Shown: piece after piece, positions 3,560-24,805 of the stretch
How positions within the stretch are numbered: the stretch's first letter is position 1
How the letters are laid out: each line of letters begins with the position of its first letter
Assembly (NCBI GenBank): GCA_017964325.1
Contig: JAGCSE010000213.1
Location: 1-28,083, forward strand
Direction of reading: 5' to 3'
Source: Victivallales bacterium
Lineage (GTDB): Bacteria; Verrucomicrobiota; Lentisphaeria; Oligosphaerales; Oligosphaeraceae
DNA: 28,083 nt
The notes under the pieces: model-generated
Databases searched by the model: none
What the model saw: the letters and a program-made list of their open reading frames with translations, nothing else
What the model was told of the DNA's origin: nothing
Made by a program: the position numbers and the translations under genes

Positions 3560-4456
3560 ATGGATAAGCAGGAAATCTTGTCAACCTTGTCAAGCAGTGA
3601 GTCCGAGCTGTTGTGCCAGGCTGTGAATGCGGCTTGCGAGACTTTGAAGGAAGAACCGTTCGGTGAGCTTGCGAACGATTTGCGCGGCATTGTCACACAT
3701 GCGGCATCCCATCCCGAAGAGCTTGAAGGAAAGGAGGATGAAATCCGCAAGGTGAAAGCGGCGCTGCTCTGCCTCGCATTTAATCGCGACAAATCATCGT
3801 TCGGCGACGTGTTCCGCCTGGCCCGCTGCGAGGCGTTTTTGAAATTGCTGCCTGAAGGCGACTGGTTCCTGCGGGATTTCCATCGTCTCATCGGCTCGAT
3901 GAGCGTGGAAGACGACCTGCCGATGATAGGCGACATGATTCTGGACGGACACTTGATGATGCCTATCCGTGAACAGGCATTGCTGTCGTTCCATTTCCTC
4001 CTGTTGGAGGAAGTCGTTCCTGAAAAGGCGCTAATCGACGAATACCGCCGTCTGCTGGAGCGCGGCCTGCCGCCTGAAGACGACTGGAAACTGTGGATGG
4101 CGTTGGTCGTAAATGCCTCTGTCATAGGTGGTTCAAAATTGAAACCAGCCGTCATGGACATTCTGGACAAAGGATGCCTTGGCGACCAGACGTCGTTTGT
4201 GCGCAAAGCCGTGACGGGCTTGTTCGGCGGCGGCAGTCAGCGTTTCCGCGAAATGTTGAAGCGCGAACACAAGAGTCTTTATAAGAACGTAAAGGAAGAG
4301 GTTGAAGCACTGCTTGCGCCACCGCAGAAGGAGACGGGTGAAATGCCCGAACGCGGCAAGCCGATCGTGCGCGAAGAACCAAAGATCGGCCGCAACGATC
4401 CATGCCCATGCGGCAGCGGCAAGAAATACAAAAAGTGCTGCGGTAAGAATCTGTAA
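3560..4456 (+). CDS. DUF1186-like helical protein with C-terminal SEC-C zinc motif
   Basis: The 298-residue protein ends in a clear SEC-C motif: [18 protein letters not shown] at about residues 276-294, the Cys-rich zinc-binding tail first seen in SecA and found on many accessory proteins. The preceding ~250 residues are almost wholly helical and rich in Leu, Glu and Asp; the pattern (for example [18 protein letters not shown] and [19 protein letters not shown]) resembles the HEAT-like DUF1186 family that commonly carries SEC-C. No signal peptide or membrane segment is present. Function is unknown; SEC-C tails usually bind zinc and contact ribosomes or partner proteins. The ATG at 3560 follows a GGAAGAAA purine run. 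It is separated from the SIS gene by 148 A/T-rich bases and from dapL by a repeat and a hairpin, so it is probably transcribed alone. Confidence 0.8.
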
Positions 4457-4462
4457 AAGCAG

Positions 4463-4484
4463 GGAGGGCGCACTCTGTGCGACC
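4463..4484. repeat. Short intergenic repeat (element B, copy 1)
   Basis: The 22-base stretch GGAGGG...CTCTGTGCGACC lies seven bases after a stop codon. A related 24-base version sits at 28043-28066, also just past a stop. It contains a small hairpin, CGCAC-TCT-GTGCG. No T-run follows, so it is not a classical intrinsic terminator. It looks like a dispersed post-gene repeat. Confidence 0.5.
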
Positions 4485-4504
4485 GTTTGCGCAAATGCGC
4501 AAAC
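4485..4504. promoter_or_regulatory. Perfect 8-bp inverted repeat upstream of dapL (operator or hairpin)
   Basis: Arms GTTTGCGC and GCGCAAAC pair perfectly around an AAAT loop. No T-tract follows. A TATAAT at 4514-4519 lies ten bases downstream, with no convincing -35. The repeat could be a Rho-type or weak terminator for the SEC-C gene, or a protein-binding operator that overlaps the dapL promoter. The position upstream of the TATAAT favours neither clearly. Confidence 0.45.
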
Positions 4505-4554
4505 AATAAAGTATATAATTCCCTAAAATATCCAGCAAATAATAAGGAAACACA

Positions 4555-10200: not shown

Positions 10201-13200
10201 TTCCATCACCAAAATCCCATTCACGAGAATCAATATTGTCAGCCGGATGATACACTATCTCATATCGGCCTAACATAAGTGGTCGTTTGGAAACCACTTG
10301 CGTTTCCTGTTCTGGTCCTAAGGTATTGAAGTTAACCGAATAAGAATTTAACGAATAATCGTATGGCATCGCATTCCAAGAAAAACGCTCCATTGGCACA
10401 CCCCATTTCCAAGTTTTCCCCCAAAGTATCCCCGAATAAAGTGGAATAGTAAATACAGAAAGATCAACTTCGGGTAATATCCCCTCTTCTTTCTTAAAGT
10501 TGAAAAGTTTAATTACAGCACTAAGCTTTAAACCAGCAGAAACCGAAAGTTTTTTAGGTGATGCCTCAAAAGATATGCCGATGCCAACCTTTCCAGTCAA
10601 ATCTGCAACTGAGGCTTCGAATTTGTCTTTTATAGATTTACCGCAAACTAATAATTTTAGTTTGATTCCCATTTCCACACCGCCATTAAGTTTTGCATTG
10701 AAAGATGCTGAATCGATATTTGAGGTACAATTTAATTTAGGCAATAAACCAGCCTCTTGGATTTCCCATTCTCCATTTTCTAATCGTTTTTTACTACTTA
10801 CCCAAGTTAGTTCCTGTTTAAATGTCTTTTCGAACGCAAGTTCCGCTTCAAAAGATAAGCTACCATTAAAATACGATTTTATTATAAATTCATTGGGGAT
10901 GATGATGGGCCCAGTGGGAGTCAGAACAGTTACATCTAATGGAATCTTAAAAATTTCTTCTTCTATTTTATCTTGGAGTTTTAGCATTTTTTGCTTTATT
11001 TTATCTGGTAGTAAATCTACGCTTAAACTACCATTCCAACTAAATGTTTCTTCAATTTTATATCCGTCTTCATATTCAAACGATTTTATTTCTTCATTTT
11101 CATCATACTCAATTTTTAAATCGTAAGGCAATTTTTCAAACGTAATATCCAATGTGAATCCTTCACTTCCTGCTATTCTTTTTTTTATTGCTTCCCATTT
11201 ATTTTCACCACGAGTACCCATTATTCCATCATCTTTTACTCGAATAGAAAAACTTTTAAACAAATCAGTTAAAACAGCATCGTCAACAGTTAAGTAATAG
11301 TAATCACCTACCTTCCGACTAGCCAAAATCTTCACCGCAATTACATCCCCATCAGGATACTTAAATAGCATTTTGGCATCTTTTACAAGTTTAACTGGAT
11401 ATTCCCCTACTTCACGCATCACAAGTATCGTCCCATCCCAGGAGACAAACTCATAGGGTGGATTCTCTGTTTCATGAAGCAAAATTACATCATCTCGCAA
11501 AACATTCTCAATAGGTTTTATGACATTGACGATTTGCTGTTCCTGTATGGTGTTACCTTCTGGTGTTGTCAAAGTCAAATCAATCCGATGCTCACCCAAC
11601 ACACTATAAATCCACTGTGGCTCAGGCTCTTCACTGTCAGTAACACCATCACCATCAAAATCCCAAGCAAATGCATATCCGTCTGTTGATTTGTCGAAAC
11701 TGAAATAACACGTCACCTCAAGTGGCCCCGATCCTTGACTTGGGAATGGCATAAAAACTTTTTTATGGACGATTAGCAACTCCACATTCTCCTGCCATTC
11801 TCCTTCATCTAATTCCACTAAAGTGAATTCCTCAGATTGCCATTTTTCGCCAAATACTTCAAGACTGTACTTTCCAGCTGGCAACTCAGTAAACTGCCAA
11901 GAACCATCTTCATTAACTTTGGTTTCATATCTTTCTTCTTGACAATATGCAGTAACAGTAAGACCCTCGCAGTCGGTCATCTCTCCATTTTTTGTTGTTA
12001 TTATACCTTCCAAACAGCCTGGTTGAGATATATAAAGTAATGCACTATGATGGTTATTATTAACATCGACGCTAATAGGTCCTGACTTATGTATAATAGC
12101 CATATCGACATTAGAAACTTTCAAGTAATAGGTATTTTCGCTAAGGTTATGAAATTCAAACTTTCCATTCTCAGAAACATCGACAATGGAAAGTGCCTGA
12201 ACACCATCCTCCATCCACAATTCCACCGAATAGTTTTCTGTTATAGGCTGTCCATTTTTCATGCAGACATAGCCGTCGATGCTTCCCAGCGGAATACACA
12301 ACAACTCCACGCCATTGACATCCTGTCCGGCAACCGTTGAAATTTTACATTCACCGACCGTCTCTGCAAAAGCCAACGTCAACAGATATTCTGTTTCCCC
12401 TGTCAATGTATCAAAACAAAAATACCCATTTTCATCCGTCTCCACCGTGATTTCCGTTGCATTTTCATCAACTGTAGTGGCGCGTATTGTGGCTTTTGGA
12501 ATCGCCGCGAGAGATTTTGCATGATAAACATAACCAGAAATTGCTGAGAATGAAGATACGGCGGTGCATTCCGCAAAATTCTGCAATACTTTGAAGTCCA
12601 TCTCTTCTTTACCACGCGCGGCTAATCTCAACGCAGCCTTATGCACAGCCTTTTCCAGTTCCTTCCATGTTGTAAAAGTCTTACTAACAGGATATTCCTC
12701 CTCTGGGAATTTCATCGTATCGAATTTCAACCTGCAACTTCCCGTAAAACTGAAATAGAATGGGACTTTGCACTCTTCGCCCGCCTTCAAAACATTGACA
12801 GGACTGGAGCCCGCGCCATAAAGCAACAGCACATCACTTTCTTCGTCGGATATTTTGACTTTCAATTGAGTTCCATTTTCACCGATGACACGGAACACTG
12901 GAGCATTCATATCCGCATTTCCTGTATTCTTGTAGCGAATATATCCAATGTACTGCCGACCCTCTCGAACACTGTCCGGAACATCCAGCCAGGCTTCAAG
13001 ATTCGCCCGCCTGACTGCCTCCACAATCGTCACAGCTTTATTTGCAATATAAACATTCTCATTGGAAGTTGTCACTTTTAAATCATAATCATTCGCTTCC
13101 TTGTCTGATAAATTAAACGATGCAACAGTCCGCCCCTCATCATCTGTTGAAATGCCAACAGCTTGTATCTTCTCATTAGCATTTTTCAAACAGACGCTCT

Positions 13201-16200
13201 TCACAGAGGCAGCATCCAGCAAGACAAAACTGATGGTAACAATTTCCGAATTGGACACGACATTCGGTGTCACATCGCAGACTGCCTCTGCCACGTTAAT
13301 GCTATTAATGCTGAACGATGCTCCCGTCAAGCTGTCATTTGCTATCCTGATATACGCCGTCTTGTCCGCCGCAGATGGCATCACCATGATGACGCGTCCA
13401 TCGTTCAATGACCGTCCTGTCGCATCGGAATGGGTCTCCGTCGGGATGAAACCGACGCCACACTGCCAATCCAATACGTCCTTAAACTGACTTACGAGCT
13501 CCAGAAACTCATGGTCTCCCGCCTTCAACGCAATATTTTCTCCACTGCCCAATGCGTATATCTTCTTGTTTTTCCATTCTTCTACTTGGACCTCTATGAC
13601 ATCCTCTCCTTCAATACGATTATTCTGGAACATCCTCTCATAAATATCCAAATTGCTGTTCACCGTGACCGCCAGCCGCCATTTTCCAGGCATGATGGCA
13701 GGAATCCGGCACTGCCTGATGATCGTTTTCTTTTCACCGACAGCCAAATGTTCATATCCTGCAATGTCTCCAAGCTCCACAGTCTGCTGCCCAAGCTCTT
13801 CGTCCGCCGAACAAAGTGAAATACTATCCTGCCAATAGCCTTGGAAGCTCACGGAACCTACATTTTCAATCTGATAGGAAACTGTGATGGTCTCGCCGCT
13901 GATGCCAATAGACGAACCGCTCACCCAATTCACCTTCAAGTCAGGCACTTCGCCGCCGCCTGTTCCAGGATATTCATAGATGCCGATGTCGGGCACACAG
14001 CCGTTTTCAGACGCAATGCCCGTATCGTTGATTTTCGTGCAGTTCATGCGCGGCTTGCCCCAATAGTCCAATTCTGGCGCGACAGTACCATCGCCTGCAT
14101 CAATGCAAGGACTGTTCGGTTTCAAAGTGAAATCGCCGTTTTCCGCGTCATTGAACAACGGGTTATCCGTAATATTGCCATCTCCATTCAAGATTCCTGC
14201 ATTCCAAAAACAAGAATAGTTGCTACTATAGCCATTTGATGATGCAGTTTCATACAAAATACTGTTATTCAACAATCCATCGCCATCAAGAGTATAGTCA
14301 GAACAAAAGGCAAGCACGGAATTTGTTATTCTGGCATTTCCTTGCACCCCAAATCTCGCTTGTTGCAAAATCGAATTGTCGATTTCAACATTACCTGCGG
14401 CATAAATCAAACGCAACAATGAATTTTGGACAATGCAACCATTCAAATTCAAATACCCAGAATTGCACCGCAAGATAGCATCTCTCTGATTACTGTACTG
14501 CCCCCAACCTCCCCATTGCAAAATGGCATTATTAAATACTGCATCTCCGCCATTGACGGTAATGCCAATCCAATCTCCTTCTTCTGGAACGGTTCCATTT
14601 CCATCCTGATTCGTGTCACCACCATGTTCGTCATCTTTAATCGATGTAAACACAATCGGTTGCGCACGGGTTCCAATGGCCTCCAATGTCGCGCCGGAAT
14701 TGACGGTGATGCCTTGTCCTGAACTGAATTTCAGAACCGCACCGGGTTCAATGGTCAGTGTGACACCATTGGCGATTGTCAGATTGCCCGTCGCCTTATA
14801 GACCAGATTGCCGCTCAAAGTTGTATTCTTTGTCAAGTTGCCTGAAGGCAGCGTGGCGGATTTACAATACAGCTTGCAAGCAGAATCCATGCGGACAGCG
14901 CCATCGCCGCCAAGCGTATAGGCATCGTAGCTCGGCATGGATGCAAAGCCATCCAGATTCGTGTCGCCGCCGATGGAATCATCGGCAATATGCGTGAACG
15001 TAACACCATTGCATTCCACGACAGAGCCCAGTTTGGCGATGATGCCGCATCCGCTCTGGAATTTCACAATCGCCCCGTCGCTGATGGTCAACATCACGCC
15101 GGCGGGGACAATCACATTGCCACGGACGACATGGATGGCGGAATCGTCCCATGTCTCGTCACCTGTCAGACGTCCATCATGGATGATGACTTCACGGTTG
15201 ATGAAAAAAGTCGTCTCCAGACGGTCCAGCAGGCCACCTCGATTGTCAAGCGTCTCGTGCGCAAGCAGATAGCGGCCAGTCCCAAGGTTGTAGGTCTCCC
15301 ATTTCGCCGTGCCGTCCGTATCGCCGTCGGTTGTGGCATGGATAGTCTGCGGCACTTCATTGTCTTCATCTAATTGCACAGAAATACGCACGGACGTAGC
15401 GGTGGCCTTTCCCGCCCATGCGGTGGAAAAACACAGCGTTTCCACATCCCGTGCCAGTCGGCTGAACAAATCCGTCCGTTCATCGACTTCCGCACCTTCC
15501 TCCGTCTCAACAGTTGTGCAGGCGTATTCCGCATCCGCCGGAAGCGTCGCTGCAGACTCGAAGATGCTGACCGTGCTCTCCGCCACATCGATGTTTGTTC
15601 CAGACGATGCCGTCAAAACGACGGTGAAATCTTCCAGCTCTTCCACGATTGCATCCGAAACAATCGGAATCTCAATGTAGCGCGTCCCATTGTCCGTGGT
15701 GGTCCATGAAAGCCTGCCAGACGACAATGTGTAGTCGCTGTTCAATTTCGCGGTGCCGTCCGTCGCCTGCCAATCGACGGAAAACGTCGCCTTGCGCGTA
15801 CCGCTGACCGTCACGGGAATCGCGACAAAACCTTGATGCTCAATGACACGGGAATTGTGGATGGACACCGTCGGCAACGTGCTGAACGTCACCTGCCGCA
15901 CATTCATAAATCCATTGTCCGTCCAGCCGGTACTGGTATTATAGCAGTAAATGAGCCAATCCGACGGCGCATCCATAGTCCCATCGCGCATGTCGGTGTC
16001 TCCACCGAACGCGTCATCCGTCGCCAAGGCAAACAAGACAGGCGATTCCGACGTGCCCTGCACGGACACCTTGCCACCATGCTCCACGATGATGCGCGTA
16101 TCTTCCGTGAACTTCACGACCGCGCCGCTTGTCATCGTAAGCGTCACACCGTTCGGTACATAGACATCGTTGCGGATCAGATGGACCACTGTACTGTCCC

Positions 16201-18412
16201 ACGTCGTGTTCTCTGTAAGACGGCCTTCCTCCAATGCCACGCCATTGTCGTTCAATACACAGATTTCCGCCGTCTGGCTATTTTGGGACAGTTCATGCCA
16301 GCCGTCTTCAGAAGCCGTTGAATTCCAAGAAGCAGGCAGTTCCTTTCCGTCCAGCGAAACCTTTTCTTCCGTCGTGGATAAATCAATGGTTCCGCGCACG
16401 ATGCGGCCGCCGAAGCCGTCTCGCAAATCCAATCGTGCCGCATTGGAGACGACGGTTGCATGGACAAGCTCTTTCATTCCCGTATCCGCCATCTTGCAAA
16501 TCGTGACCGTCACGTCGTTTGTCACGATATTCGCCCCGCCAGAAGCGACGAGATGCACCGTGAAGGTCTCTTCGTCCGCCGCCAAATTGCCCCCCATAAT
16601 CGGAATGGCGATGTACTTCGTGCCGTTGTTCGTAGAGCTCCATGTCAGCTTGCCGGCGGCTAGGCCATAGTCCTCTTTAAACGTCGCCGTGCCGTCCGTC
16701 GCCGTCCATTCCGCATAAAAAGTTGAATTCCGCGAACCAGACACCGTCACTGGCAGATACGCCGTCCCGCAGTCTTCATAGACCGCCGTCCCATGCAACG
16801 TCAGCGATGGATAAGTACTGGAAATGACCAGTCCGCGTGACGCAACATAACCGTTGTCCGCCACCGTGCCGCTGGAATAGTTGAAGATCAACGCATTGGC
16901 GGGGAAGACGACCTCCGCCTCCCGCATGTCCGTATCACCCGCATAGCCGTCGTCTGTCGCCATTGAGAACTGCACGAAGGCGTCTTCCAAGCCGTTTATC
17001 TGCAGTTTGCCGCCGTTTTCGACGATGATGCGCGTATCCTCCGTGAACTTCACGGTCGTCCCTTCCGTGATGATCAGCGTCACACCGTTCGGAATATAGA
17101 CGTCGTTGCGGATCAGACGGACGGCGGAATTATCCCATGTCGTGTTCTCCGTCAATCGCCCTTCCTCGCAATGGACATCATCTGTGTTCAGAACCGCCAC
17201 ATCCCGTGTCTCACCACCTTGTGACAGTTCCAACCAGCCATCCTCCAACGTGGTCGTATCCCATGACTCGCCAATGACCTTTCCGTTCAGCGTCACATCG
17301 CCGTCGGTGTCGGACATCGCCATCACGCCCTGCGCGATGCATCCGCCGAAATCATCGCGCAAATCCAACCGGACGGGCTGTGATGTGGCCGTGGCGGCCG
17401 TCAGATGGTCGAACTCGCTATCCGCATTATTGTAAATGGTGACGAGCGCCTCCGCCGTCTGGATGTTCGCTCCGTATGACCGTACAAGGCGGATTGTGAA
17501 CGTCACGTCTTCATCCGTCTGCGATTCCGTCACAAGCGGAATTTCAATATACCGTACACCAGCAGACGTGGATGTCCAGCTGACACGGCCGCTGTTTTCC
17601 GTAAAATCGACTCCGTATTTCGCCGTGCCATCGACGGTTTGCCAATCGACTGCAAACGACGTACTGCGCGAGCCTGACACCATGACGGGAATGCGCACGG
17701 AACCGCTCTGTCGCATCGCCCGCACAGGCTGCACGGCAAGATATGGTAATGCGCCAATGACAATATGATTGACGGCGAACCAACTGTTATCCGTCCATCC
17801 CTCATCTTCATAACATTTAATCCGTGGCTCTGTCTCATTCACCACTTCTGCATCCTGCCAATCCGTGTTGCCACCGACGGAATCATCCGCCACCTGTGCA
17901 AACTCTATAGGCAAATTTTCACCGCCGTTGACGGCGATTTTGCCACCATGCTCGACGATGATGCGGCTGTCCTCCGCGAACTTCACAATCGCCCCTTCGG
18001 AAATCGACAGCGTCACGCCGTTCGGCACATACACGTCGTTGCGGACGACATGGACGACTTCATTATCCCACGTGCTCCGGTCCATGATGCGCCCTTCCTC
18101 CAGCCGGATGGATGCGTCATTGCGAACACATACCCGCTCCGTCTTCCCATTGCAGGACAACGTATGCCAGCCATCCACCAAAGCGGTTGTATTCCAAGAA
18201 GATGAAATGGCTTTGCCATCGCATTTCACCGTGCCTTCCGCTGCAGAAAGCGCCACCACGCCCTGCACGACGCGCCCGCCGAAGCCGTCGCGCAAGTCCA
18301 GCCGCGCCACGGCTGATTCAGCCGTGGCGACCGTCAGCCCTTCAAACTGCGCATAAACAGCTATGGTGGAGACAAGAAACGTGGCAATAATGAAATGAAT
18401 GGTATGCTTCAT
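7229..18412 (-). CDS. Giant secreted modular protein: Calx-beta repeats, beta-helix, CARDB, PKD, CHB_HEX, SUMF1 domain
   Basis: A 3727-residue exported protein. Residues 1-21 form a signal peptide, probably cut after VYA. Three homologous modules of about 311 residues (23-333, 334-645, 646-955) each combine a short beta domain, a beta-solenoid unit (NDVYVPNGVTL...AIVKF) and a Calx-beta domain (DGTAK...). More solenoid units with GGDTNxDG and a parallel beta-helix follow to ~1450. Then come a CARDB domain (~1488-1600), three carboxypeptidase-regulatory-like beta domains (~1955-2200), a PKD domain with WDFDGDG (~2220-2297), a helical/beta region coded by A/T-rich DNA, a second PKD-like unit (REWDFGDG, ~2711-2770) and a Cys cluster (C2789-H2808). 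The tail has a DUF11-like beta domain, a fibronectin-III-like unit, GWN repeats, a chitobiase-type CHB_HEX unit, BspA-like LRRs and a C-terminal SUMF1 domain (~3428-3727). Likely a cell-surface adhesin or polysaccharide-binding protein. AAAAGA is the only SD-like signal upstream. Confidence 0.88.
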   Translation of the reverse strand: MKHTIHFIIATFLVSTIAVYAQFEGLTVATAESAVARLDLRDGFGGRVVQGVVALSAAEGTVKCDGKAISSSWNTTALVDGWHTLSCNGKTERVCVRNDASIRLEEGRIMDRSTWDNEVVHVVRNDVYVPNGVTLSISEGAIVKFAEDSRIIVEHGGKIAVNGGENLPIEFAQVADDSVGGNTDWQDAEVVNETEPRIKCYEDEGWTDNSWFAVNHIVIGALPYLAVQPVRAMRQSGSVRIPVMVSGSRSTSFAVDWQTVDGTAKYGVDFTENSGRVSWTSTSAGVRYIEIPLVTESQTDEDVTFTIRLVRSYGANIQTAEALVTIYNNADSEFDHLTAATATSQPVRLDLRDDFGGCIAQGVMAMSDTDGDVTLNGKVIGESWDTTTLEDGWLELSQGGETRDVAVLNTDDVHCEEGRLTENTTWDNSAVRLIRNDVYIPNGVTLIITEGTTVKFTEDTRIIVENGGKLQINGLEDAFVQFSMATDDGYAGDTDMREAEVVFPANALIFNYSSGTVADNGYVASRGLVISSTYPSLTLHGTAVYEDCGTAYLPVTVSGSRNSTFYAEWTATDGTATFKEDYGLAAGKLTWSSTNNGTKYIAIPIMGGNLAADEETFTVHLVASGGANIVTNDVTVTICKMADTGMKELVHATVVSNAARLDLRDGFGGRIVRGTIDLSTTEEKVSLDGKELPASWNSTASEDGWHELSQNSQTAEICVLNDNGVALEEGRLTENTTWDSTVVHLIRNDVYVPNGVTLTMTSGAVVKFTEDTRIIVEHGGKVSVQGTSESPVLFALATDDAFGGDTDMRDGTMDAPSDWLIYCYNTSTGWTDNGFMNVRQVTFSTLPTVSIHNSRVIEHQGFVAIPVTVSGTRKATFSVDWQATDGTAKLNSDYTLSSGRLSWTTTDNGTRYIEIPIVSDAIVEELEDFTVVLTASSGTNIDVAESTVSIFESAATLPADAEYACTTVETEEGAEVDERTDLFSRLARDVETLCFSTAWAGKATATSVRISVQLDEDNEVPQTIHATTDGDTDGTAKWETYNLGTGRYLLAHETLDNRGGLLDRLETTFFINREVIIHDGRLTGDETWDDSAIHVVRGNVIVPAGVMLTISDGAIVKFQSGCGIIAKLGSVVECNGVTFTHIADDSIGGDTNLDGFASMPSYDAYTLGGDGAVRMDSACKLYCKSATLPSGNLTKNTTLSGNLVYKATGNLTIANGVTLTIEPGAVLKFSSGQGITVNSGATLEAIGTRAQPIVFTSIKDDEHGGDTNQDGNGTVPEEGDWIGITVNGGDAVFNNAILQWGGWGQYSNQRDAILRCNSGYLNLNGCIVQNSLLRLIYAAGNVEIDNSILQQARFGVQGNARITNSVLAFCSDYTLDGDGLLNNSILYETASSNGYSSNYSCFWNAGILNGDGNITDNPLFNDAENGDFTLKPNSPCIDAGDGTVAPELDYWGKPRMNCTKINDTGIASENGCVPDIGIYEYPGTGGGEVPDLKVNWVSGSSIGISGETITVSYQIENVGSVSFQGYWQDSISLCSADEELGQQTVELGDIAGYEHLAVGEKKTIIRQCRIPAIMPGKWRLAVTVNSNLDIYERMFQNNRIEGEDVIEVQVEEWKNKKIYALGSGENIALKAGDHEFLELVSQFKDVLDWQCGVGFIPTETHSDATGRSLNDGRVIMVMPSAADKTAYIRIANDSLTGASFSINSINVAEAVCDVTPNVVSNSEIVTISFVLLDAASVKSVCLKNANEKIQAVGISTDDEGRTVASFNLSDKEANDYDLKVTTSNENVYIANKAVTIVEAVRRANLEAWLDVPDSVREGRQYIGYIRYKNTGNADMNAPVFRVIGENGTQLKVKISDEESDVLLLYGAGSSPVNVLKAGEECKVPFYFSFTGSCRLKFDTMKFPEEEYPVSKTFTTWKELEKAVHKAALRLAARGKEEMDFKVLQNFAECTAVSSFSAISGYVYHAKSLAAIPKATIRATTVDENATEITVETDENGYFCFDTLTGETEYLLTLAFAETVGECKISTVAGQDVNGVELLCIPLGSIDGYVCMKNGQPITENYSVELWMEDGVQALSIVDVSENGKFEFHNLSENTYYLKVSNVDMAIIHKSGPISVDVNNNHHSALLYISQPGCLEGIITTKNGEMTDCEGLTVTAYCQEERYETKVNEDGSWQFTELPAGKYSLEVFGEKWQSEEFTLVELDEGEWQENVELLIVHKKVFMPFPSQGSGPLEVTCYFSFDKSTDGYAFAWDFDGDGVTDSEEPEPQWIYSVLGEHRIDLTLTTPEGNTIQEQQIVNVIKPIENVLRDDVILLHETENPPYEFVSWDGTILVMREVGEYPVKLVKDAKMLFKYPDGDVIAVKILASRKVGDYYYLTVDDAVLTDLFKSFSIRVKDDGIMGTRGENKWEAIKKRIAGSEGFTLDITFEKLPYDLKIEYDENEEIKSFEYEDGYKIEETFSWNGSLSVDLLPDKIKQKMLKLQDKIEEEIFKIPLDVTVLTPTGPIIIPNEFIIKSYFNGSLSFEAELAFEKTFKQELTWVSSKKRLENGEWEIQEAGLLPKLNCTSNIDSASFNAKLNGGVEMGIKLKLLVCGKSIKDKFEASVADLTGKVGIGISFEASPKKLSVSAGLKLSAVIKLFNFKKEEGILPEVDLSVFTIPLYSGILWGKTWKWGVPMERFSWNAMPYDYSLNSYSVNFNTLGPEQETQVVSKRPLMLGRYEIVYHPADNIDSREWDFGDGKSEIHSGGSPDSFSYVYEGKSSHRVSLLPKRFFMKGVKFTSLVVPSGEKRKCPICGHIFGSYSTTCTCHCHGYYEFPDDDCLPPILQSCDPNEIVGPRGAGDPATQRLVERGEWLDYTVYFENKSTADAAAQEIWVDLDLDEKLVDVSTFQLGAISFGNQLVNTLNGKATGKFTVTQDGTPWQVRGKVTCDKDNGAVQWYLRSYDPANAEGGYWPAVVTAGFLPPNDDNHSGEGYVSFRVKVRDDAPIGRRIDCSATITFDRNQPITTSPAWFNWIYDGATATTETGVMTWDAQDDATYDVTIWKGDADKNSDAAELVTTSDSLTMNRWRLPSILLNDVDYYWQVTTTTADGTVTESPVWGFDLGGRCTLELKPGWNLFSLPFRPENYTERILLGQNLFGIENNSYTRTSSLEGGKAYWLFQHDNTKRYLDIFPSQTRTAEEIPLKAGWNMVGPTDTERHLDSGYTIWYWQDGRFVYLEEDAEGGYTLKAGVGYWIYIMDDGEFPNAVNLEFRPPSGTKFSGEGLQVFLRSNLAHDIVTFYYTLDGSKPTDRSKRYDVANGIWLTSTATIRVAAYVNNRLVRDDFRANYTKLPYTYSIQDGKATITRYTVGNMTEVAIPDKIDGAVVTGIGDHCFAGASSLTSLKLPDSIVSIGEDAFDGCTALTTVESGSRYVHDWMREHMPMVKLTGLLEDDDLYIVVDLSAGPDAANYPVRYTDQAPNLEDDACRTTELWLRKIPAGTFIMGSPEDEVGRRDSDMAQHEVTLTQDYYIGVFECTQKQWELVMGSNPSSINGNSRPVECVSYEMIRGTGEQGGAGWPEYGHSVDATSFMGKLQAKTGLVFDLPTEAQWEYACRAGTTTALNSGKNLTSTGQDANMAEVGRYAYNHLDGKGGYSDGHAKVGSYRQNAWGLYDMHGNVYELCLDWYGASTSSVAAVSDPVGPNTGWIRVQRGGDWARGAELCRSASRSFLTPSDCYHHYGFRIFCQSSGR
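10010..11500. other. A/T-rich segment inside the giant gene
   Basis: Within the giant gene this stretch is markedly richer in A/T than the flanking exon-like portions (7.3-9.9 kb and 14-18.4 kb), and codons shift to A/T-ending forms. It encodes residues ~2300-2800: the region after the first PKD domain, rich in Lys, Glu and Ile, plus the second PKD unit and the Cys cluster. Intermediate composition continues to about 13.7 kb. This suggests that the gene was assembled from parts of different origin. Confidence 0.55.
15545..18346 (-). repeat. Three tandem ~311-residue coding modules
   Basis: Modules begin at F23, F334 and M646 (DNA starts 18346, 17413 and 16477). Each opens with a segment ending RLDLRDxFGG, continues with EEGRL..TTWDN...LIRNDVYVPNGVTL and ends with a Calx-beta unit of the form DGTAxxxxDYxxxxGxLxWxxxxxGxxYIxIPI. 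Matching order and length show in-gene triplication. A fourth, incomplete solenoid part follows at ~15200. Confidence 0.8.
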
Positions 18413-18581: not shown

Positions 18582-19823
18582 TTATTGGACTGCGGGCAAG
18601 CAGGCTAGGCGGAAGCCAAAATAATTGTAGATGCTATTGGAATGGAAGTAGTTGCCGGCTAAACGACATGCCGAACGGCAGCTCTGCGCGAAGCCGTTGC
18701 CGTAGAAGTAGAAGCTTTCCCCGCAGCCGCCGCGCAATATGCGGCAAGAGCCTGAACCGGTGCCCTTAGGATCCGTCGCATCGTTTGACGACAATCCTCC
18801 ATACCAGTCCAGGCACCATTCCCAAACGTTTCCATGCATGTCATAAAGCCCCCAGGCGTTCGGAAGATAGGAGCCAACTTTTGTATGCTCCGAATATCCT
18901 CCTTTGCCATCGTTTCTGTTATTTTTGTATCGTCCTACTTCCGCCATGTTTGAACATGATTCCGTCCCCGTCAGATTTTTACCTGAATTGAGGGCTGTGC
19001 TCGTTCCCGCGCGGCAGGCGTATTCCCACTGGGCTTCCGTGGGCAAATCGAAAAGCAAGGATGTCTTGGCGCGCAGGACATGGAAGAAGGAGTCTTCATC
19101 CACCTGGTTGCTGACAGGCCAACTCGCCCCGTTCACCGTTCCGCGAAGCATATCGTAGCTGACATAATCCACTGGGCGCGTATCGCCTTTGTAAGGAGAC
19201 GGATTCGTCCCCATGACCAATTGGTACTGTTTCTGCGTGACTTCGAAGACACCGATGTAGTAGGGCTTCGTCAGCGTGACCTTGTGGAGCGTCTCGTCCG
19301 AATAGCGTCCCAATTCCTCCGCTGGCGACCCCATCATGAATGTGCCGGGGAAGATGAGACGGAGCCACAATTCCGTCGTACGGCAGGTGTCCTGTGTGAT
19401 ATCAGGCGGCGTCGCGCTGTAACGGACAGGATATTTCGCGACATCCACGCCGCCGGACAAATCGACGACCATATATGGATACGCCCCCGTAAACGCCTGA
19501 ATCGTAACGGTGAAGTCGCCCGTATGCAGGTTCGGTTCATCGACGGACATGTCCCATGTCACGCGATGCATTCCCGCCTTCACGGGGTCCTTCGCGCCGT
19601 CGCCCTCCAGCGTTTTCAGCGGGAAGGAGCGGTTCTCCGCGCCATCCTTGCCGATGAAGCCGACATAGATATCCGCGTTCTTGTCGTCATACGTGACGGT
19701 GTAGTCGATATCGACCTTTCCGTTCCACGGCCACCGCTGCTGCACCTTCTGCACGGAGACCGACACCTCGCCGGCCGTTAGCACGGCCGCCATCATCAAC
19801 ATCAACAGCATCCATTTCTTCAT
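18582..19823 (-). CDS. Secreted SUMF1/FGE-fold (C-type lectin-like) protein
   Basis: A 413-residue exported protein: signal peptide (residues 1-18, cut near LTAGE), a beta-sandwich domain of about 95 residues (KVQQRWPWNGKVDIDYTV to GDFTVTIQAF), then a SUMF1 domain from ~150. The SUMF1 landmarks are GTFMMGSP, YYIGVFEVTQKQY, FDLPTEAQWEYACRAG, WGLYDMHGNVWEWCLDWYG and the ending FGFRLACLP. It is homologous to the C-terminal ~300 residues of the giant protein, including the VDLSGGVDVAKYPVRY linker. Of the two cysteines of true formylglycine-generating enzyme, the first (RGGSYMC) is replaced, so it is not a sulfatase activator. The last ~55 codons are rich in NNC/NNT codons (AGC TTC TAC TTC TAC GGC AAC), as in DGR variable regions. 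AAGGAA precedes the ATG. Probably surface-exposed; ligand unknown. Confidence 0.87.
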   Translation of the reverse strand: MKKWMLLMLMMAAVLTAGEVSVSVQKVQQRWPWNGKVDIDYTVTYDDKNADIYVGFIGKDGAENRSFPLKTLEGDGAKDPVKAGMHRVTWDMSVDEPNLHTGDFTVTIQAFTGAYPYMVVDLSGGVDVAKYPVRYSATPPDITQDTCRTTELWLRLIFPGTFMMGSPAEELGRYSDETLHKVTLTKPYYIGVFEVTQKQYQLVMGTNPSPYKGDTRPVDYVSYDMLRGTVNGASWPVSNQVDEDSFFHVLRAKTSLLFDLPTEAQWEYACRAGTSTALNSGKNLTGTESCSNMAEVGRYKNNRNDGKGGYSEHTKVGSYLPNAWGLYDMHGNVWEWCLDWYGGLSSNDATDPKGTGSGSCRILRGGCGESFYFYGNGFAQSCRSACRLAGNYFHSNSIYNYFGFRLACLPAVQ

Positions 19824-19984
19824 CGTCGTGTTCCTTCAAGAGTGAGGGGGGTATATATTTTTTTGAATAATTATTGCGTCATAAGTTACATTCTTTGTTT
19901 AAAAATAATTTATTCATAATTCTCTTTATGTCAAGAGAGAAGATTAAAAAATGATGAAGACGGTACCATGCGGGCGTCCCGCCT

Positions 19985-20014
19985 GCGGGCAACGGCGGGG
20001 ACACCGTCGCTACT
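19985..20014. repeat. Element A copy (GC-rich, GGCGGGGACACCGTCG)
   Basis: The stretch CAACGGCGGGGACACCGTCG with flanks matches 21618-21645 and, in part, 23107-23125. Next to it, GCGGGCG-TCC-CGCCTGC at 19970-19986 can form a hairpin. It sits in the 394-base gap upstream of the 413-residue gene and of the Rpn gene, which otherwise holds only A/T-rich DNA and the 10-bp array. Confidence 0.6.
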
Positions 20015-20020
20015 CCCCCT

Positions 20021-20110
20021 TCCTTTTATGATTTCTTATGATTCTTTATGACTTTTGTTTATTTTTTATGATTTACAATGAGTTATCATGCTTTATTATG
20101 ATTATTAATG
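20021..20110. repeat. 10-bp-periodic A/T-rich array, units ending in ATG
   Basis: Nine consecutive 10-base blocks, of the form ATTnTTTATG, run from 20021 to 20110, and eight of the nine end in ATG (ATG at 20028, 20038, 20048, 20068, 20078, 20088, 20098 and 20108). The unit at 20051-20060 has decayed. The period is close to one DNA helical turn, so the T-tracts are phased and the DNA may be bent. It lies about 110 bases upstream of the Rpn-family start. Confidence 0.75.
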
Positions 20111-20217
20111 ATAATAACAGAATTTTAAAGATATAATTTGCATTTCACTGTCCAGATGCTATTGTATGATTTGTCACAATTGGACTTGCTGTATTTTGAA
20201 ATGGAGATATATTAAAA

Positions 20218-21243
20218 ATGAGAAATAACATGAAGGATATGGATGCGGCTGGCAAGCTCTTCATGGCGCTGGACAGGCCGTTCGCGGACCTTGTGGATTT
20301 CTTCCTGAGGGAGGAGGGCTACAGGGTCGTCCGCGAATCCATGCGGGAGCGGGATCCAGAGGCGATCGGCCGTCCGCCGGGTGGACGCCACAGGAGGGTC
20401 GTGCACGACGTCGTGAAGGAGATGGACGTCCGGAGGCTTCGCGGGAGGCCGCGCCGCCTGACGGTGGCGTGGGCGAACCAGTCGTACGTGAGCCGCGTCA
20501 TGCCGGGGCGCGAGCTGATGTCGTCCGCGCTCCACTGGGACCGCTGGCGCGGCGGCATCAGGTCGGAGCACGAGAGGAACGGCGAGCTGAAGACTCCGGA
20601 GCAGTGGCTGGACGGCATCCTCCCCGGCGACCGGATGCCGCCCGTCCTGACGCTGACGCCCTATTTCGGGCAGAAGCCGTGGAGGGGGGCGAACCGCTTC
20701 GTCGCGGACATGCTGGACTGCCCGCCGGGGCTGGAGAAGGCCATGGCGGACTGCCCCGCCAACGTCGTCTCCTTCCGCGACATGACGGCGAGGCAGCTGT
20801 CGGCGTTCGACGCGGGCCCGATGCGGGCGGTCGCCAAGTGCATCCGTTACGCGCGCAACCACAGGCAATTAAGGCATGAGATGCGCACGGATCCGTCGTT
20901 CCTCGACATGCCGGCGGAGGCGTACGGGATCATCAACATTGCAACAGGAATGAATTTGAAACCAAGGCAAAAGGAGCACAACGACATGGCAAGGGATGTA
21001 TCGTCATACGACCAGTACCTGCTCGACATGGGCGAGAGAAGAGGCGAAAAGAAGGGCGAAAAGAGAGGCGAAAAGAAAGGTGAAAAGAAAGGAATCGCAG
21101 CCGCAATCATGAGATTCATCCAAAGCAGAAGAAGTCGCCATTTCTCCGAAACGCAGATACAAGAGGACCTGCAACTTGATTTCGGCCTGGATGAAGCCCA
21201 GGCAAGCCAGTACATGGCAAATTCCTTGACAGCAAAAGTTTGA
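20218..21243 (+). CDS. Rpn-family PD-(D/E)XK protein (recombination-promoting nuclease/transposase-like)
   Basis: A 341-residue protein of the Rpn/PD-(D/E)XK putative transposase family. Residues ~8-110 match the nuclease core: AGKLFMALDRPFADLVDFFL, VVHDVVKE (Asp64) and WANQSYVSRVMPGRELM. The family's central motif is usually ENQ; here residues 86-88 read ANQ, so the catalytic Glu seems replaced. Next, LTPYFGQKPWRG matches the conserved YxGxxPW segment. The C-terminal part (257-341) has a charged RGEKKGEKRGEKKGEKKG linker and a small helical domain. The DNA for residues 15-220 is strikingly GC-rich compared with its neighbours. GGAG is 11 bases before the ATG. An internal AAGGAG/ATG at 20971/20986 would allow separate translation of the C-terminal domain, and a copy of that domain follows as its own gene. 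In known rpn genes the short product inhibits the full-length nuclease. Confidence 0.75.
   Translation: MRNNMKDMDAAGKLFMALDRPFADLVDFFLREEGYRVVRESMRERDPEAIGRPPGGRHRRVVHDVVKEMDVRRLRGRPRRLTVAWANQSYVSRVMPGRELMSSALHWDRWRGGIRSEHERNGELKTPEQWLDGILPGDRMPPVLTLTPYFGQKPWRGANRFVADMLDCPPGLEKAMADCPANVVSFRDMTARQLSAFDAGPMRAVAKCIRYARNHRQLRHEMRTDPSFLDMPAEAYGIINIATGMNLKPRQKEHNDMARDVSSYDQYLLDMGERRGEKKGEKRGEKKGEKKGIAAAIMRFIQSRRSRHFSETQIQEDLQLDFGLDEAQASQYMANSLTAKV
20986..21243 (+). CDS. Internal in-frame start: putative short C-terminal Rpn product (RpnS-like)
   Basis: In frame with the Rpn gene at residue 257, ATG 20986 has AAGGAG at 20971-20976, nine bases upstream, inside the coding sequence. It would give an 85-residue protein: MARDVSSYDQYLLDMG, a charged linker with four RGEKKG-type units and a helical end, RHFSETQIQEDLQLDFG. 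Known E. coli rpn genes make such a short C-terminal protein from an internal start, and it blocks the full-length nuclease. That it is translated here is inferred; conservation of both the SD and the ATG in the downstream duplicate supports it. Confidence 0.55.
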   Translation: MARDVSSYDQYLLDMGERRGEKKGEKRGEKKGEKKGIAAAIMRFIQSRRSRHFSETQIQEDLQLDFGLDEAQASQYMANSLTAKV

Positions 21244-21268
21244 ACGAAATAATCCGGAGCACAACTAC

Positions 21269-21538
21269 ATGGCAAGGGATGTATCGTCATACGACCAGTA
21301 TCTGCTCGACATGGGCGAGAGAAGAGGTGAAAAGAAGGGGGAGAAGAAAGGCGAGAAGAAAGGAAGAATGGAAGGGCAGGCAGAAGGCATCGCCACCGCA
21401 ATCATGGGATTCATCCGAAGCAGAAGAAAGCGGCATTTCTCCGACACTCAAATACAAGAAGACCTGCGGCTTGATTTCGGACTGGACGAGGAGAAGGCAA
21501 GCCAGTACATGGCGGCGGCCTTGACAGCCAAGACGTGA
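21269..21538 (+). CDS. Stand-alone duplicate of the Rpn C-terminal domain (antitoxin-like)
   Basis: This 89-residue protein is a near copy of the Rpn C-terminal domain: the first 26 residues, MARDVSSYDQYLLDMGERRG plus EKKGEK, are identical, and the end QIQEDLRLDFGLDEEKASQYM matches with few changes. The charged linker differs in length (it adds RMEGQAEG). GGAG at 21256-21259 lies nine bases before ATG 21269, as in copy one, so the duplication includes the ribosome-binding site. It begins 25 bases after the Rpn stop. A domain copy with its own signals and no nuclease part is best read as a free antitoxin or inhibitor. It could also be a decayed second rpn gene that lost its 5' part. Confidence 0.72.
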   Translation: MARDVSSYDQYLLDMGERRGEKKGEKKGEKKGRMEGQAEGIATAIMGFIRSRRKRHFSDTQIQEDLRLDFGLDEEKASQYMAAALTAKT

Positions 21539-21617
21539 ATGATTTTTCTCGTCAAGAAACAGATGTACTTCTGTCCAGTACCGGCGGCGGAAGTCCTCGG
21601 GCGCAGGCGGGCTAAAG

Positions 21618-21645
21618 CATGCAACGGCGAGACACCGTCGTTACT
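21618..21645. repeat. Element A copy overlapping the end of the GH28-like gene
   Basis: CAACGGCGAGACACCGTCGTTACT matches the copy at 19985-20014 with few differences. Its last bases include the stop codon (TTA on the plus strand, 21641-21643) of the leftward GH28-like gene. The region 21539-21617 holds no gene. Confidence 0.6.
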
Positions 21646-23053
21646 TGAACACAATCTCGCTCGCGAATTCCCGCACCATGACGCAGGGTGATTCGCGGGT
21701 GATTTTTTCGCCGAAATACGTCACGTTCTCCAACGTGATGCCGCGGATCGTCTCCTTCTCGTTGCGGCCCTGGAAATTCATGACCCCCTTGAAGTTATCC
21801 TTCACGCCGTCGATGCTGATGTTCTTGAATGTCACGTCACGCAGGCTGCCTGCGTTCTCGTATTTCGTGCCACCGACACCACAGCATTGCGCTTTCGCCT
21901 GCACAATCACCGTATCCAGACCGCAGGTCTTCACACGGATATCCTCGAAATGCAGGTCGTACATCTCCATGCCGCCGCTGGGCTGCAGCCAGAAAATAAC
22001 GTTCGCCCAAAATTCGTCTGGGCCGCGCACATTCTTACTGTAGTACAGAACATCGATATTTCGCGCGCGAATATTGCGCATGGCTTCGGCCGCGCATTCA
22101 TAGCCGATACGGAACGTGTTCGCGCAATCCGTCCAGAATTCGCAATCCTCTACAAGAATGTTCTCGCAGGCTGCGCGGCCTTTTTGATCCATCCCCTTGA
22201 TGGCGATGTTGTCGTCCTGACAGCGCAGGAAGCAGTTGCGGACAATCGCGTCCGACGTATTGCACAAATCCACCGCATCGTCGTTGATCATGTTCGAGCA
22301 GACAACTTTCACATTGTCAATCAACACGTTGCGACAATTGTTCGTCACCAGCGTCCAACTCCATGAGTTGCGGATTGTGACTCCTTCAATCGTCACATTC
22401 TTCCCGTTCACAGTATGAATAGGAAACGCGCATGGCCCCTTGAAGCGCGGATATTCACTGCCATCGACGATGCCACGACCGCGAATCGTGATATTGTCGC
22501 CATCCGCCTCGATGCCGCCGGACAGCACGGCGCCGCCCGCCAGATAGACGGTCTGCCCCGTCTTCACGTCCAGCCTGCCGACTTTGTGAAGCCCCGGCCC
22601 GAAATACAACACATTCGCATCCCCTTGCTTCGGAACATTTTTCTCAATCGGATTCCCGAACAGCAAAAGCGGCTTCACACGCCCTTCACGTTCAATGGAA
22701 ATACGGAACGGCTTGTCGGCCTTAAACACAATCGTGTCGTCGGACACCTTTACAGGCCGTATGCCGAAACGCGCAGGCTGGATTTCCACATTCGCCAGCG
22801 ATTTTGGCGATGTCACCATCACCGTCACCTCGCCTTCGAAATCAAAGGAGCCGAAATAGTATTTTCCATCCCAAAACTGCACATTGCAAGGATATATGTC
22901 AACAGGCTTTCCGTCAACCGTCACCTGGTATTCACTTGAATCCGACAATCCAGCGGGCGCAGGATACGTCACGACCTTTCCCTGCGGCAACGTCGCGCAA
23001 CCAACCGCCAGCAGCATTTGCGCCGTCAATGTAAACAACATCGTTTTACTCAT
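21641..23053 (-). CDS. GH28-like right-handed beta-helix lipoprotein (polygalacturonase-like)
   Basis: A 470-residue exported protein with a signal ending in a lipobox-like LLAVGC (Cys19), so probably a lipoprotein. It has an N-terminal beta domain and then a parallel beta-helix. The solenoid turns read IRGRGIVDGSEYPRFKG, VTIEGVTIRNSWSWTL and NVLIDNVKVVCSN, followed by the acidic cluster MINDDAVDL and RCQDDNIAIKG. The two Asp-containing motifs correspond to NTD/DGID and GDD in GH28 polygalacturonases; the GHG motif is not clearly present, so it may be a divergent glycosidase or lyase of the pectin-lyase fold. The ATG at 23053 is chosen because AAAGGAG precedes it; the upstream ATG at 23080 adds a Lys-rich tail. 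It is 82 bases after the HD hydrolase gene on the same strand, separated by an element A remnant. Likely outer-membrane or periplasmic, in polysaccharide degradation. Confidence 0.8.
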   Translation of the reverse strand: MSKTMLFTLTAQMLLAVGCATLPQGKVVTYPAPAGLSDSSEYQVTVDGKPVDIYPCNVQFWDGKYYFGSFDFEGEVTVMVTSPKSLANVEIQPARFGIRPVKVSDDTIVFKADKPFRISIEREGRVKPLLLFGNPIEKNVPKQGDANVLYFGPGLHKVGRLDVKTGQTVYLAGGAVLSGGIEADGDNITIRGRGIVDGSEYPRFKGPCAFPIHTVNGKNVTIEGVTIRNSWSWTLVTNNCRNVLIDNVKVVCSNMINDDAVDLCNTSDAIVRNCFLRCQDDNIAIKGMDQKGRAACENILVEDCEFWTDCANTFRIGYECAAEAMRNIRARNIDVLYYSKNVRGPDEFWANVIFWLQPSGGMEMYDLHFEDIRVKTCGLDTVIVQAKAQCCGVGGTKYENAGSLRDVTFKNISIDGVKDNFKGVMNFQGRNEKETIRGITLENVTYFGEKITRESPCVMVREFASEIVFK

Positions 23054-23135: not shown

Positions 23136-23741
23136 TTATTTGCAAGCCGCTGTGAAAACTTTTTCCACCAGAGCGGCAAACTCCTCGTAGGCCTCCATGC
23201 CTTTCAGTTCCGCCATCGCCTCCACCAATGCGCGGAAACGCCACGCATGGCTCCGCGGATCCTTCGCGTGGAACTGCTGCCAAAAATCGTCGCCATAACG
23301 CACATAATCGCGGGCAATCGCACGCATATTGGACAGCTTGTCGCCCAACGCTACGATTTTCACATCACGTCCTGCATGTTTAAGTTCTTCCAGCGCCGCA
23401 TTTTTCCGATCATACCAGCTTTCTTCACGGCTGCGCGAATGGTCATGCTTTTCTGTCTCGGCATCCACCAAATCAGCGACGCGGTCTCCGAATTCCCTGC
23501 GGATGTCCTCCACCGTACATGGCGTATCCTCCACGACATCGTGCAGCACGGCTGCGGCAAGAAGTTCAGGTTCCGACGTCATCGTCGCGACAATCGTCAA
23601 CGCCTCCAGCGGATGCACGATATATGGAAAATCGCGTCCACGCCGTGGCACGCCTTTGTGCGCATTCACGGCATAAATGATCGCCTTATCGACCAGACTT
23701 GTGTCAATCTGCTTCGTCTTGTGCTTTTCCATAATTGTCAA
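23136..23741 (-). CDS. Small alarmone hydrolase (HD domain, MESH1/SpoT-like)
   Basis: A 201-residue HD-domain protein with the full (p)ppGpp-3'-pyrophosphohydrolase signature: PYIVHPLEAL (His43), VLHDVVEDT (His67, Asp68, Glu71, Asp72) and GDKLSNMRAI (Asp134, Asn138). It lacks the synthetase, TGS and ACT domains of long Rel/SpoT enzymes, so it belongs to the small alarmone hydrolase (MESH1-like) group. These remove the 3'-pyrophosphate from (p)ppGpp; some act as antitoxins that degrade ppApp or ppGpp made by partner toxSAS enzymes. The ATG at 23741 overlaps the stop of the synthetase-domain gene by four bases (ATGA), so the two are cotranslated. An internal ATG at 23732 is possible. The pairing implies control of the upstream protein's product. 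Confidence 0.85.
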   Translation of the reverse strand: MTIMEKHKTKQIDTSLVDKAIIYAVNAHKGVPRRGRDFPYIVHPLEALTIVATMTSEPELLAAAVLHDVVEDTPCTVEDIRREFGDRVADLVDAETEKHDHSRSREESWYDRKNAALEELKHAGRDVKIVALGDKLSNMRAIARDYVRYGDDFWQQFHAKDPRSHAWRFRALVEAMAELKGMEAYEEFAALVEKVFTAACK

Positions 23742-24805
23742 TGAAGTATTTTTTGAATCCGTTCATACATACGATGCGCCATGGATGCGTTTCGCGGGCG
23801 CACCCCATGCAAACGGTCGTAGAAATCCTTCAGCCCCGCTTCGCCATGACCGCTTTTAACGATATGAATCAGACAGAGATTCTGAAGCGCCAGCGTTGAG
23901 GAAATGATGTCCAAGTCCGTGCCGCTCATCTGGCTGAGCGCCAAACGATAGGCGTCGTCTGAACAGCTTTTTCGCATGGCCTCCACTTCCGACAGCATCT
24001 TCAGCCCCATCTGCTTCAGAATCGGTAGGTAGATCATTCCGCTGCCCTCCTGAATCTCCGCGTTATTGGCGGAAGCGATTTTTTCCGTGAGCAGCCTGAA
24101 TGGATCCAAGTCCAGATAATGGCGGAATGATTCACCGTCCAATTCCAAGTCCTTGTATTTACCGTCTTTAAGCATAGTCCGCACTTTGCGGCGGTAATTT
24201 TCAAGACTCGTGCGGATGCTACGGAACTCTTCGTCCGCAATTTCCAAAACAACCGCCATGCGCGTCAACGGGCGGATGTATTCGCGTGGCATTTCGATGT
24301 CGGACTTGTAGCCCGTGTCATGGTATATCGTCGCCCACACATGTTGCAGCGCCGTCCGCATTTGCAACTCGAAGCGAAATTCATTCAAGCGAGGCAACGA
24401 CGGATCGCTGAACAACGACGGCGGAATCTTACAGATGTAATGCAGCGACATATAACCGAAATGGTCCACATCGTGCATCTTCCGCTTGTCAATCGAATTC
24501 TTCCAGTCAATATCAAACACCTTTTCCACCAGCGATGCAATCTTATCGACTTCATCACTGTAATATGTAATGATACGGACACCGACCAAATCCGTCACAT
24601 CGCTGATTTCACGATACTTGTCTCCCTTAAGCTCCAGCTTGCCAGCCAAACTTTTCTCGGTCTTCACGCGACCTTCCACGCCGACATTTATGTTATTGTC
24701 CACCATCATCGACTTCAAATAGTCCATGGCGAAAGTCAGCATTCTTTCAAATGTAGGCTTGTTTTCCTGGAACTGCATCATCAGTTCACTGCAATGACTG
24801 TTCAT
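23738..24805 (-). CDS. RelA/SpoT-domain alarmone synthetase with C-terminal helical extension
   Basis: A 355-residue protein with a RelA/SpoT synthetase domain (about 40-170): VEGRVKTEKSLAGKLE (Arg46, Lys48), DVTDLVGVRI (Asp72), HFGYMSLHYI, then FELQMRTALQHVWATIYH with Glu147 and Arg150, the usual catalytic and substrate-binding points. No HD, TGS or ACT domain. The ~170-residue C-terminal part is helical and unrecognised. It could be a (p)ppGpp synthetase of the small type or a toxic alarmone synthetase (toxSAS); the following hydrolase gene overlaps by four bases, a layout seen in toxin-antitoxin pairs such as FaRel with a hydrolase antitoxin. A purine-rich but weak SD precedes the ATG. A TTGAAG-N17-TAGATT promoter lies about 45 bases upstream. 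Which of the two roles holds cannot be told from sequence. Confidence 0.83.
   Translation of the reverse strand: MNSHCSELMMQFQENKPTFERMLTFAMDYLKSMMVDNNINVGVEGRVKTEKSLAGKLELKGDKYREISDVTDLVGVRIITYYSDEVDKIASLVEKVFDIDWKNSIDKRKMHDVDHFGYMSLHYICKIPPSLFSDPSLPRLNEFRFELQMRTALQHVWATIYHDTGYKSDIEMPREYIRPLTRMAVVLEIADEEFRSIRTSLENYRRKVRTMLKDGKYKDLELDGESFRHYLDLDPFRLLTEKIASANNAEIQEGSGMIYLPILKQMGLKMLSEVEAMRKSCSDDAYRLALSQMSGTDLDIISSTLALQNLCLIHIVKSGHGEAGLKDFYDRLHGVRPRNASMAHRMYERIQKILH

Follow-up and report, generated by a model that had tools for sequence, protein, structure and literature searches.

A tandem Rpn-like locus of a Victivallales bacterium with a predicted inactive nuclease and a stand-alone tail copy of different repeat number

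The locus and its internal start

The stretch of DNA that we have analysed, referred to here as the window, comprises 28,083 nucleotides from a Victivallales bacterium (assembly GCA_017964325.1, contig JAGCSE010000213.1), and our analysis is concerned with two adjacent open reading frames (ORFs) on its + strand that resemble an Rpn nuclease gene and its short inhibitor: a full-length Rpn-like gene at 20218..21243 (RpnL, 341 amino acids (aa), predicted to be nuclease-dead), and an 89-aa ORF at 21269..21538, which is a stand-alone copy of the C-terminal tail of the long gene (RpnS', a predicted product). In Escherichia coli, an rpn gene gives rise both to a full-length DNA endonuclease, RpnL, and, through an internal start, to a short C-terminal inhibitor of it, RpnS, which together serve in the defence against phages. 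Inside the long gene, the internal Shine-Dalgarno (SD) sequence AAGGAG, located at 20971..20976, stands nine bases before ATG 20986, from where 85 codons would be read as an intragenic RpnS (20986..21243, also a predicted product). The two genes are separated by a 25-nt linker (21244..21268) that holds GGAG at 21256-21259; the SD sequence of the stand-alone copy, CCGGAG, is weaker than the internal one and stands nine bases before ATG 21269. A previous, sequence-only reading of the window had proposed both frames, the 85-residue product and the repetition of the C-terminal part at the same spacing, and all of these have been confirmed on re-reading.

The tail and the stand-alone copy align by blastn at 82.6% over 276 columns (E 2e-81), with 70 of 85 aligned residues being identical and one extra four-residue unit being present in the copy; in the DNA, the duplication appears as the direct repeats 20973-21092/21256-21375 (90%) and 21043-21247/21338-21542 (77%). 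The four-residue repeats are located at 21031..21093 in the tail and at 21314..21388 in the copy, and helix 1, counted from the start Met to the core, is 40 residues long in the former and 44 in the latter, i.e. one unit longer in the copy. The locus is part of a homologous unit (20036..21611, + strand; 83% to positions 3053-4649 of the related region L001) that takes in approximately 180 bases 5' of the first ATG and approximately 70 bases 3' of the last stop, with different genes beyond. The tandem of the window is not a chance arrangement, because a linker of equal length and similar sequence, followed by a tail copy, occurs after the full-length gene in L001 and in a second related region, L003; none is found in L002, which comes from the same metagenome-assembled genome (MAG) as L003.

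The internal start is conserved among the homologues of the long protein. All 28 aligned proteins have the internal Met (alignment A2, holding 28 of 41 homologues, with the fragments P0022, P0023 and P0027 and the distant P0032-P0041 excluded), and Met together with GGAG is kept in each of the 37 genes with sequence at that site (two of the 39 rows are without the region), a count over related genes, hence over trials that are not independent. GGAG occurs within an SD-like stretch that ends 5-9 nt before the ATG, while the residues that it encodes vary (KE, QE, EE, ME and others); elsewhere in the genes with the internal start, the shares of the AAG and GAG codons are 0.62 and 0.57, so that codon habit alone does not explain the conserved GGAG. 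Judged from sequence, the long gene carries the conserved internal SD sequence and start codon of the RpnL/RpnS gene-within-gene systems; four-residue repeats of varying number are also present near the RpnS start, and copies in the lineage differ by multiples of four residues.

Catalytic residues of the long protein

The long protein has no match in Pfam (including PF04754, the Rpn family), PADLOC or PHROG, and its matches in NCBIfam are weak, with TIGR01784 scoring 13 bits, below the cut-off of 52.1. The name “Rpn” is therefore based on homologues and aligned active-site residues, not on curated profiles: some of the homologues carry PF04754, e.g. P0010 at 44% identity, and the residues D11, D63, Q84 and R94 of the PD-(D/E)XK site of Escherichia coli RpnA align with matching residues in the long protein. 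What stands of the earlier assignment to the Rpn family is thus a divergent homologue, while membership by Pfam or TIGR01784 profile does not. The resemblance to RpnA extends to the internal ATG with its SD sequence, and to the charged repeat helix followed by a three-helix end; RpnA differs in having its catalytic Glu, and is annotated in K-12 without a stand-alone copy.

At the position of RpnA Glu82, the window has an Ala codon (20473..20475, + strand), where Glu is found in the other 30 of 31 aligned rows and in 32 of 33 fetched genes, the window being the sole exception; two adjacent residues have changed together, from Leu-Glu to Trp-Ala. According to Kingston et al. 2017 (PMC5350276), the RpnA-E82A mutant has lost all three phenotypes and is inactive; it has the same Ala at the catalytic Glu position, with the difference that it was made in the laboratory, while the form in the window is natural and occurs in a remote homologue. 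The long protein of the window is a homologue of Rpn nucleases that we predict to be unable to cut DNA, because its catalytic Glu is Ala and RpnA-E82A is inactive. Every catalytic residue that was checked is kept in the long genes of L001 and L003.

The N-terminal domain of the long gene has a ratio of nonsynonymous to synonymous change (omega) of 0.54 on the window branch (95% 0.26-2.90) versus 0.14 on the L001 branch, the former being larger in 98.9% of bootstraps. Within the long gene of the window, the GC content at third codon positions (GC3) is 0.89 in the N-terminal domain and 0.55 in the tail, with the same step in L001, L002 and L003, as if the N-terminal domain and the tail had different histories.

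Relatives, selection and repeat number of the stand-alone copy

A separate gene that stands directly 3' of rpn, encodes the tail and has its own SD sequence is what defines the RpnS' type, and the window has one. In E. coli, RpnS is encoded either inside rpn or as a separate gene, the latter being ypaA, which follows rpnE, or a second rpnCS, which follows rpnC (PMC10327210). The gene with a stand-alone tail is therefore a published layout, of which the window is a further case, and the stand-alone version cannot be called unusual, as had been supposed, since it also recurs in diverged Rpn subfamilies of this lineage. The E. coli loci rpnE-ypaA and rpnC-rpnCS' share with the window the full-length rpn gene with an internal start, the separate tail gene with its own SD sequence and the four-residue repeats of varying number; the window differs from rpnE-ypaA in being a remote homologue from another phylum and in the length of its linker (25 nt, versus 12 in E. 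coli).

The protein search with the stand-alone copy returned 27 clusters, 24 of them of 71-101 aa and three annotated as hypothetical proteins of Victivallales; 24 of the 27 proteins (without P0047, P0067 and P0068) were aligned with both window copies (alignment A1). Tail-profile matches occur in 5 of 98 related genomes. The search for other rpn genes followed by a tail ORF, which the sequence-only reading had suggested, succeeded in L001 and L003, and a second tail adjoins another in 12 of 40 fetched regions, an enriched proportion, since the regions were picked to include tail-only matches; the involvement of several subfamilies with different linkers suggests several origins of the tail duplication.

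The stand-alone copies of the window, L001 and L003 are under purifying selection (pairwise omega 0.135, 0.144 and 0.120, with synonymous divergence (dS) of 0.43-1.18); between the window and L001, 19 of 28 differences fall on third codon positions (silent excess, Fisher p 3e-7). This selection on the copies and the conservation of the internal site make both start codons look genuine. The tail and the copy of the window itself are separated by a dS of 0.59 with an omega of 0.18, hence the low omega is not due to recent copying from the tail. Plain decay of a tail without selection, which had been named as a possible refutation, is rejected by the omega of 0.12-0.14 together with the kept SD sequence and linker.

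A survey of the phylum with the TIGR01784 profile found 30 loci in 16 of 288 genomes and no stand-alone tail copy among them; the scan for downstream copies flagged three of these loci, of which L125 is a tandem of two full-length genes, and L126 and L132 were judged spurious. Carriage on mobile elements found no support, since no relative was confirmed in the viral_contigs collection, nor by tblastn in plasmids, the “phages” collection not having been searched. The matches of the short proteins to FliH, HEC-01A and phrog_4785 look like matches of charged repeats and were dropped. No relative was found in the PDB by sequence, and the predicted structure of the stand-alone copy (pLDDT 66.5) has no structural match at E 0.001; the RpnAS entry 7TH0 is not among the structural matches listed, which says nothing either way.

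The number of four-residue repeats is of particular importance, because RpnL of RpnC is blocked only by an RpnS of equal repeat number, and one added repeat abolished the inhibition, in a test published for RpnC only (Zhong et al. 2023, PMC10327210). Measuring the repeat number as residues from the start to the core, we have found unequal lengths of the stand-alone copy and the neighbouring tail in 9 of the 11 pairs from this lineage, with each difference divisible by four; in the two pairs of equal length, L073 and L104, the cores have diverged (35/43 and 16/42 identical). The 11 pairs omit L076 (copy frameshifted), L078 (tail frameshifted, at a contig end) and L079-L082 (tails without a visible partner); four of them (L070, L073, L074 and L075) have an upstream gene that is truncated where the contig ends, and for L075 either copy could be the tail of the gene, the two being labelled oppositely in the ranking of tail similarity. 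The omitted L078 (G001:C115) has an rpn gene in which the repeats form a long run and the tail core is in another frame; after it, where the contig ends, another tail begins.

In E. coli, tail and copy differ in repeat length in all 23 pairs that were read, at 14 rpnE/ypaA loci (10 distinct haplotypes) and at 9 rpnC loci (9 distinct); at 4 of the rpnC loci, the difference is not divisible by four. Of the 19 distinct haplotypes, 17 have a stand-alone copy that is shorter than the tail. With pairing at random, 0.56 matches would be expected among 9 rpnE haplotypes; there are none. These loci were hand-picked from 60 spread rows of each search: the rpnE sample consists of 16 matches and K-12, making 17 loci, 14 of them with a pair (13 parsed and L148 read by eye, the automated count having parsed fewer because of its strict start pattern), while the rpnC sample consists of 9 matches chosen for an annotated second feature, all with a pair, the copy of L156 being annotated as incomplete. 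We did not find the mismatch between tail and copy mentioned in the main text of Zhong et al., nor any other paper on it among those that our literature searches listed.

There are also signs of exchange between tails. L002 corresponds to L003 minus the first tail and linker, with a common flank after the last stop; the tail and the copy of L003 itself belong to opposite major groups of a tree of 33 short proteins (split at 100/99), and the L003 copy (C15) has its closest counterpart, with a helix as long as its own, in the tail of L002 (C113), another rpn gene of the same genome. In the same tree, tails and copies intermix as shuffled labels would (8 changes versus 8.5; bootstrap not settled). 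In E. coli, the tail cores of rpnE and the ypaA cores form two separate sets. A GC-rich sequence of 26-28 nt that follows the L001 copy (4637-4664) recurs four times after the L003 copy (1361-1486) and is a short dispersed repeat.

A promoter-like site, TTGACA-16-AATAAT (11/12 matches), extends from the end of the long gene into the linker (21226..21253, + strand); both hexamers are identical in L003, while L001 has AATAGT, and seven such sites occur in 19900-21700, versus 1.2 in shuffles. Its role as a promoter of the stand-alone copy is doubtful, because a transcript made from it would have its first base at the second SD sequence or beyond it. Elsewhere in the window, a 3727-residue ORF on the - strand (7229-18412) has Calx-beta, carboxypeptidase-regulatory-like and leucine-rich parts and ends with an FGE-sulfatase domain, which is also found in the adjacent gene of 413 aa (18582-19823, - strand). 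At 23136-24805 (- strand), an HD_4 protein adjoins a RelA_SpoT-region protein, presumably as if a (p)ppGpp synthetase and hydrolase were split over two genes. Two small ORFs 3' of the L003 tandem (1602-1832 and 1832-2239) read like what we take to be a toxin-antitoxin pair of the VapBC type (AbrB-like and PIN-like).

Possible roles of the stand-alone copy

The reading that we tentatively prefer, with a probability of about 0.4, is that the window holds an antitoxin-only locus, in which a long protein predicted not to cut stands next to a selected tail copy, and which would neutralise other Rpn nucleases rather than its own. Its starting points are the tandem copy, the SD-ATG sites, the conservation of the internal site, the selection on the copy, the change from Glu to Ala and the repeat mismatch. 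Both short proteins are probably made, by analogy with E. coli, where YpaA (RpnES') has been detected as a protein by tagging in K-12 (Zhong et al. 2023, PMC10327210). If RpnC is a guide, being the only published case, they would pair by way of the repeat helix, each with only those RpnL proteins that have as many repeats as itself, so that the repeat helix would set the RpnL that is recognised by each short form. The long protein would not cut, the intragenic RpnS would be one predicted inhibitor, and the selected RpnS', having another repeat number, would protect not against its neighbour but against other Rpn alleles, whether already resident in the cell or incoming. A tandem duplication of the 3' end of the gene is the probable origin of the copy, whose specificity would later have been altered by changes in the 12-nt units and also, within this lineage, by the exchange of tails. 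The locus rpnE/ypaA of K-12 may be regarded as a partial parallel: YpaA is one repeat longer than the tail of RpnE, as is the copy in the window, and RpnE is annotated and assayed as inactive, while the long protein of the window is predicted to be so.

Several observations weigh against this reading. K-12 RpnE keeps the catalytic residues, including the Glu that is lost in the window, hence it is inactive for a different reason; nor do tandem loci in general have a dead nuclease, since the other long genes that were checked (32/33) keep Glu. The omega of the N-terminal domain on the window branch is still below 1 (95% 0.26-2.90), and exceeds that of the tail plus copy (0.22) in only 86.6% of bootstraps; 9 of the 23 window-only changes in this domain are K to R, which together with the higher GC3 (0.89, versus 0.80 in L001) suggests that part of the rise in omega may be base-composition drift. 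The repeat data reject the view that tail and copy are kept matched, but are compatible with a mismatch by chance as well as with a kept one. The target of the stand-alone copy is itself presumed, and a helix-length match at another locus was seen for only 2 of 12 copies (C15-C113 and C130-C42), among the best four tails listed per copy in incomplete MAGs, with five rows dropping out because no start or anchor was recognised in them. The neighbouring tail is the best core match in 7 of 10 rankable pairs, among the tails listed, and in E. coli, the downstream copies group with the RpnS that precedes them in the same locus (Zhong et al. 2023, PMC10327210).

The similarity of the neighbouring core in these 7 of 10 pairs, along with the tandem arrangement on the same strand with linkers of 12 or 25 nt that suggest co-expression, and the intact catalytic residues of L001 and L003, would fit a stand-alone copy that acts as a second, dosage-boosting inhibitor of the neighbouring RpnL, with the mismatch being tolerated in this subfamily; we consider it unlikely, given the differing repeat numbers (9 of 11 pairs in the lineage, 23 of 23 in E. 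coli), the loss of inhibition upon one added repeat in RpnC (PMC10327210) and the predicted inactivity of the long protein. For the window, the proposal of the sequence-only reading, two inhibitor sources for one working toxin, is likewise unlikely, because, as that reading had overlooked, the catalytic Glu is absent and the repeat numbers of copies differ from those of their neighbours, here by one repeat. Also improbable, in our judgement, though slightly less so, is that the copy exists chiefly because tails turn over, where duplication and recombination make and remove spare tails that serve as donors for the switching of RpnL tails: the relation of L002 to L003 and the intermixing of tails and copies in the tree agree with it, as do the loss of the separate copy by deletion or fusion among E. 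coli strains (Zhong et al. 2023, PMC10327210) and the several sampled strains that have rpnE without a copy (L152-L154), while the purifying selection at dS of 0.43-1.18, the conserved SD sequence and linker, the separate core sets in E. coli and the production of YpaA as a protein (PMC10327210) speak against it.

It is rather less plausible that the copy binds DNA through a helix-turn-helix and regulates the locus, with its repeat number only tuning dimerisation, in view of the low Z, of the absence of an operator among our findings (no search for one was made) and of the highly charged repeats and the published antitoxin role (PMC10327210), which favour protein binding. The Ala codon could also be a peculiarity of the assembly or strain, with the nuclease being active in the population and the locus being an ordinary Rpn system with a detached RpnS': the codon is seen in one contig, the protein cluster P0001 has five member sequences that were not read individually, and two neighbouring residues differ together; we hold this to be very unlikely, since the frame is intact and the N-terminal domain has other window-only changes and a raised omega.

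A wider extension of the antitoxin-only reading, which we regard as speculative and rather unlikely, is that detached RpnS genes form a separate layer of immunity, out of register with the neighbouring toxin, which would give trans-immunity against the Rpn alleles of phages, plasmids and rival lineages; the window would then be an end point, where the nuclease has been silenced at the catalytic Glu and a bank of antitoxins with two specificities survives. Stand-alone RpnS genes have been seen before without being explained, and their usual out-of-register state, if true, implies that they are not simply spare antitoxin. If they are usually mismatched, the purpose of detached antitoxins could be reduced to a small co-expression matrix with natural alleles, for which the 10 rpnE and 9 rpnC haplotypes would make the test easy in laboratory E. 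coli, while a naturally occurring equivalent of the E82A null, with both short forms retained, would allow the role of the antitoxin to be told apart from that of the toxin. The interest of the locus lies in the combination of a predicted dead nuclease with a repeat mismatch, which makes the role of the detached antitoxin directly testable.
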